This document shows positions 48,144 to 51,702 of a DNA stretch of 64,000 nucleotides, in pieces (within the stretch, counting starts at the first letter, position 1; each line of letters starts with the position of its first letter). The DNA lies in the NCBI RefSeq assembly GCF_012849375.1, contig NZ_CP051684.1, positions 4,154,001 through 4,218,000 of the forward strand, in the 5' to 3' direction. The stretch comes from Duganella dendranthematis (GTDB lineage Bacteria; Pseudomonadota; Gammaproteobacteria; Burkholderiales; Burkholderiaceae_D). The notes below the pieces were generated by a model. The model was not told where the DNA came from, searched no databases, and saw only the letters and a list, made by a program, of their open reading frames with translations. Position numbers and translations under genes: made by a program.

Positions 48144-48649
48144 TCCGACCACTGCTTGAGCGAGGCGGCGATGCGCGCGACAAGCGCATCGTATTGTTCC
48201 CGCTGTGCGCTCTCATATTCCAGCCTGAATTTCGCGCACTGTACGCCGTTGGAGATCAACTTATCGTAGAAGATGCGGGTGCCTATAGTGCCGGATACCA
48301 CCGCTAAAGTTTTGGTCTGCCGGCTGTAGGTGACTTTGAGCGCGCTATTTTGCTGGTGATCGGCCAGGAAGCGCGCCGGCGAGTACAGGCCTTCTCCGCA
48401 ATAGCTGGCCGATGCGGTCAGACGCGCGTCGTTGGCCGGCGAGATGAACACCTGGCCATTGCCCGCATCCGGTTCGCCCTGACCGGCGAACGATGCCGGA
48501 TAATCGACCGAAAAATTATATTTGTTATTAACGTAGCTTAGAAACTTTCCCGCCGCCGAGGTGACGGTGGAATCGCTGTCGTTCTGCGCTGGCTTGGCCG
48601 CCGTCACGAACGGCGACAGCAGGGCTACAGTCAGTATCAATATTTTCAT
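48140..48649 (-). CDS. Secreted protein of unknown function
   Basis: 169 aa. Signal peptide [18 protein letters not shown]; the mature part ([33 protein letters not shown]...) resembles small PsbP/LpqN-like periplasmic domains in its YNFSVDYP opening but I cannot place it firmly. Two cysteines (YCGEG, VQCAKF) could pair. Its start overlaps the xseA stop (ATGA), so it is translated with xseA; the stop overlaps glk in the opposite direction. Confidence 0.72.
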
Positions 48650-50004
48650 TGCGAGGTCTGTACCTTGTCGATGTCGATCTGGGCGCTGCCTTCCGCCAGG
48701 CGCACGGTGACGGTGCTGCCTGGTTTCAGTTGCGACGGCGCGCGCATGACGACGCCTTTGTCGTCGGTGACGATGGCGTAGCCGCGCTCCAGGGTGCGCT
48801 GCGGATTCAACAGTTCCAGCTGCGAGGCCAAGGCCGTTAGCGCGTCGCGCTGCTGGCTGACGCGCGTCTGGATGCTGATCGCTGCCCGATGCTGCAAGCT
48901 GGTCAGCACCGAGCGCGCCGCAGTTACCTCCGGCCTGCGCGCGCCGAGACGGCCGCTCAAACGGTCCAGTTGATGCCGCGCCTGCGACAGTGGTGCGCGG
49001 TTGGCGTGCGTCATTGCCGTGGCCAGTGCGCGCAGCTTGTGGCGCTGCTGTTCGATCTGCGCGCTCGGGTTCAACAGGCGGCGCGTGTAGCCATCCAGCG
49101 TCTGCTCCGCATCGTTGACGGCGCGGCGCATGGCGCGGCGAATATCAATCACGTCGGCCTTCAGCGAGCCGATCCAGTCCGCGCGCGGTGTCACCGCCAG
49201 TTCCGCCGCCGCCGTTGGCGTGGCGGCGCGCAAGTCGGCCGCAAAATCGCAGATCGTAAAATCTGTCTCGTGGCCGACGCCGGAAATCACCGGCATGCGG
49301 CAATTGGCCACCGCGTACGCCACTTCCTCGTCATTGAACGACCACAAATCCTCGATGCTGCCGCCGCCCCGGCACACAATCAGCACATCGCAGTCGGCGC
49401 GCAGCGAGGCCGTATCGATGGCCGCCGCGATCTTCTCTCCCGCCAGCTGGCCCTGCACCGGCGTTGGATACAGCACCACCTGCACATGCGGTGCGCGCCG
49501 TTTCAGCGCGGTCAGCACATCACGCAGCGCCGCCGCCTGCGGACTGGTGACGATGCCCACCGTGCGCGGGAACATCGGTAGCGCGCGCTTGCGGTCCGCA
49601 TGGAACAGGCCGGCCGCATCGAGCTTTTCTTTCAGCCGCTGGAAGGCCTCGAACAGCGAGCCAACCCCGGCGCGGCGGATGCCCTCCACATTGATCTGGT
49701 AATCGCCGCGTGCGCCGTACAGCGTGACCAGCGCGCGCACCTCGACCTTGTCGCCCTCGCGCGGAATGAAGTCGGCATATTGCGCGCGGCCGCGGAACAT
49801 CACGGCGCGCACCTGCGCGCCGGTATCTTTCAGCGTGAAGTACCAGTGGCCCGATGCCGCTTTGGTGAAGTTGGAGACTTCACCCGAGATCCAGGTCAGT
49901 GGAAAAGTGCGTTCCAGCAGCCGCGCCACCGCCTGGTTCAGCGCGCTGACGGTGATGACCGGGGCGCCGGTCGGGGCGGAATCGTTACTGTCGTCGGGCG
50001 TCAT
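48646..50004 (-). CDS. xseA: Exodeoxyribonuclease VII large subunit
   Basis: 452 aa. Start at ATG 50004 (a TTG three codons upstream is possible). N-terminal OB-fold: [44 protein letters not shown] (about 17-62). Catalytic core motifs follow: [75 protein letters not shown] long coiled coil is C-terminal. It degrades ssDNA with XseB, not seen here. Followed by a small secreted-protein gene; its upstream side is the DnaA/IHF-box region. Confidence 0.95.
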
Positions 50005-50126
50005 AAATTTCAAAAGTGGAAACTATCCACACTATGTGAGATTGGTCACACAGCGGTCACAGAGCATCTAAAGCGGTAGGTATTATAGATAAATGCCTGA
50101 TTTTAAAGGGGAAACATTTGTGCCGT

Positions 50127-50216
50127 ATTTGCGTGCACAGAGGAAAAACCCTTACGGATCAAGCACTTTGCCATTACCCATGGTGGTTACACACAAAGTT
50201 ATCCACAAAAGATGTG
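50127..50216 (+). repeat. DnaA/IHF module A
   Basis: ATTTGCG at 50127; IHF-like GATCAAGCACTTT at 50157-50169 (first and last consensus positions differ); perfect DnaA box TTATCCACA at 50199-50207; TGTG at 50213-50216. IHF-to-box offset is 42 bp. Confidence 0.75.
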
Positions 50217-50271
50217 TGAAACTTCAGTGACCGATAGCCTTTTTCTTGTTGTTGATTTTATCATGCTTAAA

Positions 50272-50359
50272 ATTTGCGCACGGAAATTATATTGTGACGA
50301 ATCAATGACTTAAGGTTGGCGATGCACGGTTTCACACACTTTTATCCACAGAATTTGTG
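50272..50359 (+). repeat. DnaA/IHF module B
   Basis: ATTTGCG at 50272; IHF consensus match AATCAATGACTTA at 50300-50312 (all fixed positions); perfect TTATCCACA at 50342-50350; TGTG at 50356-50359. Offset 42 bp. Shares the 15-mer ACGAATCAATGACTT with module C. Confidence 0.82.
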
Positions 50360-50464
50360 CAAAACTCTGTAGTTGTCCCGGATTTGCGTGGGGAAGTGAA
50401 TATCCCGAACGGACAGGTGACAGGCGTTTCCGGCCCATCGGACCCCCACCAAATGCCGTGCTAG

Positions 50465-50554
50465 ATTTTTACGCATGGCAATAAAATTATTACGAATCAA
50501 TGACTTGGATTTGTAACTTGCGCCTTGCTAACAATCTTATCCACATAAAATGTG
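50465..50554 (+). repeat. DnaA/IHF module C
   Basis: ATTTTTACGC at 50465; IHF consensus match AATCAATGACTTG at 50495-50507; perfect TTATCCACA at 50537-50545; TGTG at 50551-50554. Offset 42 bp. Preceded by a very AT-rich stretch (AATAAAATTATTA). Confidence 0.82.
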
Positions 50555-50667
50555 CAGAAGTGCACAGTTGGCGGCGATAGTTGAAAGCGATTGATCGCTT
50601 TCCTGTCCGGGTCGGTGGATAAGCTCGTTTTGGCCCCGAAAACAGGCCGAAAACAGCTCGCTGCTAC

Positions 50668-50757
50668 ATTTTTACTCACGGCAAAAAATCCCTTTGAAAT
50701 CAATGACATTTCTCCTTATGGGACAGCTTGCGCACAATCTTTTCCACAGTTAATGTG
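50668..50757 (+). repeat. DnaA/IHF module D
   Basis: ATTTTTACTC at 50668; IHF-like AATCAATGACATT at 50698-50710 (two mismatches at the 3' end); DnaA box variant TTTTCCACA at 50740-50748; TGTG at 50754-50757. Offset 42 bp. Confidence 0.75.
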
Positions 50758-50798
50758 GGGAAGTGCACAGGCTGTTTTCCCCGCCAAAAGCATGCGTT

Positions 50799-50886
50799 AT
50801 TTTTGCGCAAGGTATAAATAACGTTATAAATCAAATAGTTAGTTAGAGCGGGTGTTCTTTGCTCACAACGTTGTCCACAGAATGTG
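50799..50886 (+). repeat. DnaA/IHF module E
   Basis: ATTTTTGCGC at 50799; IHF consensus match AATCAAATAGTTA at 50829-50841; DnaA box variant TTGTCCACA at 50871-50879; TGTG at 50883-50886. Offset 42 bp. Confidence 0.77.
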
Positions 50887-50920
50887 GGCATAACTGTGAT
50901 TAACTGTGCGCGCCTGCGTG

Positions 50921-51010
50921 ATTTTTAAGCGTAGTAACTATTTCCTTGTGGATCAACCACTTAGGACGTAAGCGATGGTCTTGCACACATCATTGTCCAC
51001 AGAAAATGTT
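50921..51010 (+). repeat. DnaA/IHF module F
   Basis: ATTTTTAAGC at 50921; IHF-like GATCAACCACTTA at 50951-50963 (one mismatch); DnaA box variant TTGTCCACA at 50993-51001; degenerate TGTT at 51007-51010. Offset 42 bp. Ends about 85 bp before exbB. Confidence 0.73.
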
Positions 51011-51096
51011 GAGAACTCCGCCAGACACTTGCTGAGTTTCGCCCAACACGATACATTGCGCCATTCAAGTATCGATTTTCTACACAGGAGTTCGTT

Positions 51097-51702
51097 TTGC
51101 TCGCCATATTCCAAGCTGCAGGTTGGCCTATCTGGTTATTGTTGATTGCTTCCATCGTCGCAACCGCCCTGATCATCGAACGCTTGCTGTATCTGCGCCG
51201 CAGCAAGATCCTGCCGAAGAAGTTGCTGGACGAAGTAGTGCAGGTCTACCGCAGCAACCACATCACTCCCGACATCATCGACAAGCTGGAAAAAAGTTCG
51301 CCGCTGGGCATCGTGCTGTCGTCGGCGTTGCGCAATGTGGACGCGCCGCGCGATGTGATGAAGGAATCCATCGAAGAGGCGGGCAGCGGCGTGGCGCACA
51401 CGCTGGAACGCTTTTTGACCACGCTGGGCACCATCGCCACGCTGGCGCCGCTGATGGGCCTGTTCGGTACGGTGGTCGGCATGATCGAGATCTTCGGTTC
51501 GCAGAACACGGCCGGTTCCAATCCGGCGGCGCTGGCGCACGGCATCTCGGTGGCCTTGTACAACACCGGCTTCGGCCTGGCGATCGCGATGCCGACGCTG
51601 GTGTTCTACCGCCACTTCCGCGCGCTGGTGGATAGCTTCATCATCGACATGGAACAGCAGGCGGTGAAGTTTGTCGACATTGTTCACAGCAAGCGCAAGT
51701 AA
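51097..51702 (+). CDS. exbB: MotA/TolQ/ExbB proton channel family protein
   Basis: 201 aa with three membrane helices (about 9-27, 108-135, 150-172) in the ExbB pattern; the conserved LERFLTTLGTIATLAPLMGLFGTVVGMIEIF block is intact. The start is TTG 51097, fixed by CAGGAG six bases upstream. With ExbD, encoded 9 bp downstream, it powers TonB-dependent or Tol-like transport using the proton gradient; the btuB product in this window is a possible beneficiary. No tonB is adjacent. Confidence 0.92.
   Translation: MLAIFQAAGWPIWLLLIASIVATALIIERLLYLRRSKILPKKLLDEVVQVYRSNHITPDIIDKLEKSSPLGIVLSSALRNVDAPRDVMKESIEEAGSGVAHTLERFLTTLGTIATLAPLMGLFGTVVGMIEIFGSQNTAGSNPAALAHGISVALYNTGFGLAIAMPTLVFYRHFRALVDSFIIDMEQQAVKFVDIVHSKRK

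Follow-up and report, generated by a model that had tools for sequence, protein, structure and literature searches.

The xseA–exbB intergenic region and its six modules

The window, the whole stretch of 64,000 nucleotides analysed here, corresponds to C1:4154001-4218000 of a genome of 6,532,782 bp on a single contig. Within it, a noncoding gap between xseA and a gene for an ExbB/TolQ-family protein accommodates an array of six modules (window 50126-51016; C1:4204126-4205016). The sequence-only reading had described this gap as a gene-free AT-rich kilobase, which is correct, and open reading frames now give its exact limits. The right-hand gene had been named exbB; it belongs to the ExbB/TolQ family, but the exact name is not supported because the score of the best model, TolQ, is below its cut-off. 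The left-hand gene is a clear xseA, and the nearest XseA among those fetched, a set from which records of the genome itself may have been omitted, is that of Duganella levis (96% identity). The features are as follows, IHF-like sites being 13-mers scored out of nine against WATCAANNNNTTR, and box II being the main DnaA box.

48646..50013, minus strand: xseA, exonuclease VII large subunit, left of the array (TIGR00237, 478 bits, cut-off 180)
50014..51096, no strand: xseA–exbB intergenic gap containing the array (1083 bp, GC 0.44; limits from ORFs)
50126..50222, plus strand: module A; IHF-like site 50157-50169 (7/9); box III 50187-50195 TTACACACA; box II 50199-50207 TTATCCACA; inverted box I 50213-50221 TTTCACACA; profile 71.6 bits, E 5.2e-21
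50269..50365, plus strand: module B; IHF-like site 50300-50312 (9/9); box III 50330-50338; box II 50342-50350; inverted box I 50356-50364; profile 63.4 bits, E 1.9e-18
50464..50560, plus strand: module C; IHF-like site 50495-50507 (9/9); box III 50525-50533, weak, TTGCTAACA; box II 50537-50545; inverted box I 50551-50559; profile 71.2 bits, E 7.1e-21
50667..50763, plus strand: module D; IHF-like site 50698-50710 (7/9); box III 50728-50736; box II 50740-50748 TTTTCCACA; inverted box I 50754-50762; profile 58.6 bits, E 6e-17
50798..50894, plus strand: module E; IHF-like site 50829-50841 (9/9); box III 50859-50867; box II 50871-50879 TTGTCCACA; inverted box I 50885-50893; profile 59.2 bits, E 3.9e-17
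50920..51016, plus strand: module F; IHF-like site 50951-50963 (8/9); box III 50981-50989; box II 50993-51001 TTGTCCACA; inverted box I 51007-51015, 2 mismatches; profile 60.6 bits, E 1.4e-17
51097..51702, plus strand: ExbB/TolQ-family protein, right of the array, called exbB below (best model TIGR02796, TolQ, 76.2 bits, cut-off 221 not reached)

The six IHF-site/DnaA-box modules had been proposed with a fixed phase of 42 bp. Every coordinate is correct on re-reading and in a scripted check, and the IHF-like site starts at -42 relative to box II in all six modules, this being the top-scoring offset in each. The site is perfect in modules B, C and E, as had been claimed. The internal order of the module is, however, richer than a single DnaA box followed by a TGTG half-site. 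The main box stands, but a box III starting 12 bp earlier (1-3 mismatches in 6/6 modules) and an inverted box I had been overlooked. Each module consists of a TTGCNCACA-like box, 3 bp, TTATCCACA, 5 bp and an inverted box, giving three DnaA boxes whose starts are spaced by 12 and 14 bp in 6/6 modules. Compared with TT[AT]TNCACA, box III has 1-3 and box I 0-2 mismatches, and in all six modules of the window box I faces the other way from boxes II and III (no more than two mismatches). The TGTG is exact and in place in four of the six modules; in module E it occurs 2 bp early, and module F reads TGTT. Its real identity is the inverted DnaA box.

When 48 modules of relatives, including close ones, were combined into a profile, it recovered six full-length modules in the window (E 5e-21 to 6e-17) and no further match there at E 1 or better. 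When the six flanks were simulated with a Markov-1 model (n = 20,000), the largest number of modules sharing a common offset (at least 7/9) was four, reached once. This simulation, together with the absence of any match for the backwards pattern in the same genome, rules out a chance origin of the phased array.

Conservation of the module in the family

Absence of the module from close relatives had been named as a refutation of the earlier reading. The module is in fact kept in relatives: of 80 related xseA loci searched, 79 carry module matches. exbB lies within 5 kb at 76 of the 80, and 75 of these 76 carry 3-9 box-anchored modules; the xseA–exbB gap of locus L126 has none. The four loci in which exbB was not found within 5 kb were kept out of the gap and module counts and inspected separately, and a module match is still present at xseA in each. 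At L070 the match at xseA is only partial, with a second module about 4.9 kb farther away. Loci L077 and L132 contain kilobase insertions inside the gap, and their modules are still recognisable, some of them kilobases from xseA. This recognisability after insertion points to modules that behave as independent units. Foreign kilobases seem to have entered the gap at L057, L070, L073, L074, L077 and L132, where the array is split or exbB displaced and modules remain. Within 2 kb of xseA at the 80 loci, 429 boxes lie on the plus strand of the window and 11 on the other.

Among 141 genomes of the same family, all have a profile match at E 0.01 or better. The best match reaches 1e-10 or better in 93 of them and is weaker in 48 (counted by hand), so the complete array, although frequent in the family, is not universal. 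The seven relatives in which the position of the array was also mapped (see below) hold between one and seven profile matches (G139, G070, G048 and G123, 7 each; G106, 6; G028, 4; G128, 1). An earlier DNA search had given matches in 46 of 145 genomes.

A logo was derived from 178 non-redundant modules out of 431 taken from the gaps of related loci and from the window; boxes less than 75 bp from the xseA end or less than 45 bp from the exbB end of a gap are omitted from the 431. Relative to the first T of TTATCCACA, it shows TTTTTRNGCA at -71 to -62, an A-rich tract at about -57 to -51, WATCAANNNNTTR at -42, TTGCNCACA at -12, TTATCCACA at 0 and TGTGCAGAA, the inverted box, at +14. Because there is little information at -28 to -18 and past +27, the spacers drift while the sites and their distances stay. 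CACA occurs at -7 in 130 and TGTG at +14 in 155 of the 178 modules, against a median of 2 at other positions where they are present. The inverted 9-mer is found at +14 with up to two mismatches in 174/178, compared with 0 or 1/178 at five slid offsets. The top IHF-like site lies at -42 with at least 7/9 in 145/178, and perfect IHF consensus sites among the 431 modules start at -42 (143) or -41 (19) and nowhere else between -75 and -13.

Two other ways to account for the array have to be weighed. The array could be a sink of strong boxes that merely absorbs DnaA and delays initiation, as box clusters do in other bacteria. It does concentrate 18 box-like sites in 0.9 kb of a genome that has 73 TTWTCCACA in 6.5 Mb, and chromosomal titration has been argued for E. 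coli (PMC12371093). However, titration needs neither a fixed IHF phase nor an inverted box I, both of which look strongly constrained, and a place far from the origin would be a poor one for early titration. We therefore regard a titration sink as unlikely. The array also fills the gap between two divergent genes, and DnaA acts as a gene regulator elsewhere (PMC11317965), so DnaA and IHF could tie transcription of xseA or exbB to the cell cycle. But modules persist away from one gene or the other, at the four loci lacking exbB within 5 kb and at L077 and L132, and similar cores lie beside unrelated genes at priA–hemE and other places, which makes promoter control very improbable indeed.

Position relative to the replication origin

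The array had been described as not adjacent to dnaA, and dnaA indeed lies at 2.04 Mb. The sole other Bac_DnaA match, at 1.70 Mb, is presumably Hda. The gap at dnaA, examined as oriC, contains one TTATCCACA. Sampled GC skew is noisy over 2.06-2.40 Mb and switches near 2.40-2.45 Mb and 5.5-5.7 Mb, and exact parS sites lie at 2462916 and 2462977, about 1.74 Mb from the array. oriC is likely to be the AT-rich DNA with DnaA boxes near 2448.8 and 2451.1 kb.

This probable oriC (C1:2448.7-2451.3 kb; L143 8740-11240) is about 0.41 Mb from dnaA and apparently falls into two AT-rich, box-containing parts separated by a GGDEF gene (650 aa). The surrounding C1:2350602-2489054, about 140 kb round the likely origin, contains fifteen perfect TTATCCACA, several of them apparently intragenic, whereas the background is sparse, with 73 TTWTCCACA in the 6.5 Mb of the genome.

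The skew switch, parS and the AT-rich box-bearing region thus all lie near 2.40-2.46 Mb, and the earlier suggestion of an unrecognised replication origin at the array has to be abandoned. The array is neither at the skew minimum nor near parS, which rules out oriC itself. A second or alternative chromosomal origin would also have DnaA boxes and IHF sites within AT-rich DNA, as the array has. Given the two skew switches, the parS position and a mid-arm place in eight genomes, it retains scarcely any probability.

The array is located at 0.53 of the half-chromosome from parS, and at 0.45-0.57 across the eight genomes. Ten genomes were searched for parS, of which G018 gave none and G001 and G026 had no usable array place; in seven relatives with a mapped position, xseA and exbB were confirmed as the neighbours of the array. 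The corresponding positions in E. coli are 0.41 and 0.66 for the DnaA-reactivating sequences DARS2 and DARS1, at whose cores ADP-DnaA is recharged, and 0.20 for datA. A link between the xseA neighbourhood and Vibrio crtS was dropped, xseA being absent from the main text of PMC3937223 and no paper having been found that contains both words.

Core geometry compared with DnaA sites of E. coli

The core of E. coli DARS2 is TTCTTCACA-N3-CTATCCACA-N5-inverted TTATTCACC and that of DARS1 is TAATACACA-N3-TTATCCACA-N5-inverted TTATCCACT, both with spacings identical to those of the modules. Equal spacing of DARS1 and DARS2, with box I opposed to boxes II and III, has been described (PMC5742627). Eight DnaA-bound regions of E. 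coli, out of 16 listed in a ChIP-seq paper (PMC11317965), were compared as controls. A direct box pair is present in seven of the eight, namely DARS1, DARS2, datA, oriC with mioC, polA, purH and nrdA; the dnaA region has none under the limits used. The inverted box (1 mismatch) accompanies the pair in DARS1 and DARS2 only, the best outside these being at datA with 4 mismatches. Because the direct III–II pair alone is a general DnaA-binding arrangement (PMC11317965), the case for DARS depends on box I; this box is weak in module F, and in module E it is without the exact in-place TGTG. The family profile matches the DARS2 core with 18.5 bits (E 1.9e-4), the DARS1 core with 14.3 bits (E 0.004) and the oriC-side pair, barely under DARS1, with 13.9 bits (E 0.005), so that the profile alone cannot separate DARS1 from oriC, whereas the geometry does.

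The array resembles DARS2, which lies between rppH and mutH, in its three-box core with the same spacings and orientation, in its IHF-like sites, which lie upstream of the core on the same flank, and in its mid-replichore place. It differs in having six cores instead of one, in its neighbouring genes and in the IHF distance: a single forward site at -42 here, against a reversed site at -99 and a forward site at -83 in DARS2. The two DARS2 sites found in our scan are 3 bp apart, in agreement with the 3-bp separation of IBS1 and IBS2 (PMC4245941). Because of this different placement, activation may differ from that of DARS2, which requires Fis sites (PMC4245941), namely FBS2-3. The core geometry is also identical to that of DARS1 in the bioD–uvrB gap, where there is a single core and no IHF-consensus match above 7/9 between -260 and +120 of box II.

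The sequence-only reading had left the choice between a datA-like and a DARS-like DnaA-control locus. Its DARS side is borne out by the three-box geometry, which is that of a DARS core; its datA side fails on the inverted box I. A datA-like site would promote IHF-dependent hydrolysis of DnaA-bound ATP after initiation. Like datA, which is defined by IHF and high-affinity boxes (PMC5742627), the array combines DnaA boxes with IHF sites in noncoding DNA, and its IHF sites lie between successive DnaA boxes. In datA, however, the essential boxes are unidirectional with IHF between boxes 2 and 3 (PMC5742627), there is no inverted box at such a spacing, the profile does not match the region at E 1 or better, and the origin is closer (0.20 against 0.53). 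In the array, in contrast, box I is conserved and inverted, and the fixed distance is the one from IHF to the downstream core. The direction of the boxes rules out identity with datA, and a datA-like activity is very unlikely.

From the arrangement of its sites, the locus is quite probably a series of six DARS-type units in tandem, every one of which has an IHF site of its own. The best reading is that a DARS locus has been multiplied into a tandem array and that IHF has moved next to each core, at a new and fixed position.

Cores elsewhere in the genome and in other families

Scattering of the module through the genome as an ordinary repeat had also been named as a refutation of the earlier reading. 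It is not what the genome shows: at an E threshold of 0.01 there are 12 profile matches, six of which are the array. The core pattern with up to two mismatches occurs 14 times, six being the modules and one an opposite-strand reading within the array, and the backwards-pattern control gives 0. With so few matches of either kind, an ordinary dispersed repeat is ruled out. Among the loci examined in this genome, there is one extra full-length module, an isolated one of the array type at C1:4804202-4804295 (L172 4202-4295; 44 bits), distant from xseA; the others examined are core-only.

In each of four cores outside the array there is a perfect (9/9) reversed IHF site, located at -109 or -110. 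Two DARS2-like cores, at 2245791 and 2246215, occupy the priA–hemE gap (C1:2245791-2246239; L170 9788-10248), 0.22 Mb from parS, one of them with a second such IHF site at -87. Two more, at 6233777 and 6235029 (C1:6233777-6235053; L171 5772-5820 and 7024-7057), have the reversed site at -109, flank a response-regulator/PAS ORF and lie at 0.85 of the half-chromosome from parS. The IHF position in the array is not that of DARS2, whereas it is nearly so at the priA–hemE and 6.23 Mb cores.

The exact pattern CACA-N3-TTNTCCACA-N5-TGTG was found in 186/250 genomes of the order, 194/274 of the class and 87/249 of a phylum sample, three samples that overlap. The backwards control gave 0 in every genome among those listed for order, class and phylum. 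By eye, families f234, f241, f244, f247 and f251 of the phylum sample lack the exact pattern. Family f235, outside the class, also contains it, with up to eight in genome G690.

Loci fetched for the order and the class are the best-listed places only. Among 29 such loci of the order, 16 are at xseA, 7 at priA and/or hemE, and 6 have no match among 14 test proteins; minus five of the own family, the 24 that remain comprise 12 at xseA, 6 at priA and 6 unplaced. Of 28 best-listed loci of the class, 10 adjoin priA, and for 18 there is no match among 12 test proteins. A set of 57 unique cores outside arrays was then assembled, three of them from the genome itself, with the own-family loci L190-L194 omitted. 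A reversed IHF consensus (at least 8/9) lies at -114 to -105 in 34/57 of these cores, or 31/54 without the own genome. Fixed 10-bp bins contain 25 reversed sites at -110, 9 at -120 and at most 6 elsewhere, and a forward site falls in the -50 to -41 bin in 6/57.

The xseA and priA cores of other families of the order and class share the core with the array and have an IHF-like site at a near-fixed distance, usually with one exact core per place. The IHF positions at these and at the own-genome cores indicate that the DARS2-like layout is commoner outside arrays and that the -42 layout is special to the array. The DARS studies consulted concern E. coli. According to a review, however, beta- or gamma-proteobacteria that are E. 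coli-proximal retain the DARS2 layout (PMC5742627), so a DARS in a beta-proteobacterium is not without precedent.

Proposed mechanism

We infer the function of the array from its anatomy alone. In E. coli, DnaA molecules on boxes I and II meet head to head, ADP is released and IHF activates the process (PMC8682772, PMC5742627). By analogy with E. coli, ADP-DnaA would occupy the three boxes of a unit. The molecules on boxes II and I would meet head to head, loosening ADP, and the apo-DnaA released would then take up ATP. IHF would bend the DNA just upstream and fold the conserved TTTTTRNGCA element (-71 to -62) back toward the core, thereby switching the unit on. The constraint on these sequences suggests that each unit is gated by its -42 IHF site and that the TTTTTRNGCA element has a role. 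IHF, alone or with a further partner, may do the work that IHF and Fis do at DARS2; the genome encodes an IhfA above cut-off and a Fis-like protein of 89.9 bits, the cut-off being 99. Several units per locus would raise the recharging capacity and so help to set the start of replication.

Evolution and biological implications

In Oxalobacteraceae, an ancestral single DARS at xseA–exbB, kept across much of the order, may have become a copy-variable battery of IHF-gated units with a new architecture, in which IHF is placed beside the core and Fis is perhaps dispensed with. The number of units would then be an evolvable dial of initiation timing, and the older DARS2-like sites at priA would extend through much of the gamma/beta group. 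We see about equal weight for and against this scenario as a whole. Among the matches listed in the open literature, as titles and abstract openings, there is no description of a DARS array or of a DARS at xseA or priA.

If the array is of the DARS type, the core geometry together with the two addresses would provide a sequence rule by which DARS can be found in many genomes. The relatives would offer a natural series of unit numbers for testing how the dosage of recharging affects initiation. With its naturally fixed IHF–core distance, the unit, some 100 bp long, would be useful for structures of IHF-gated ADP release. Relatives, too, have several copies, which suggests that a dial of replication timing has been multiplied here and had previously gone unnoticed.
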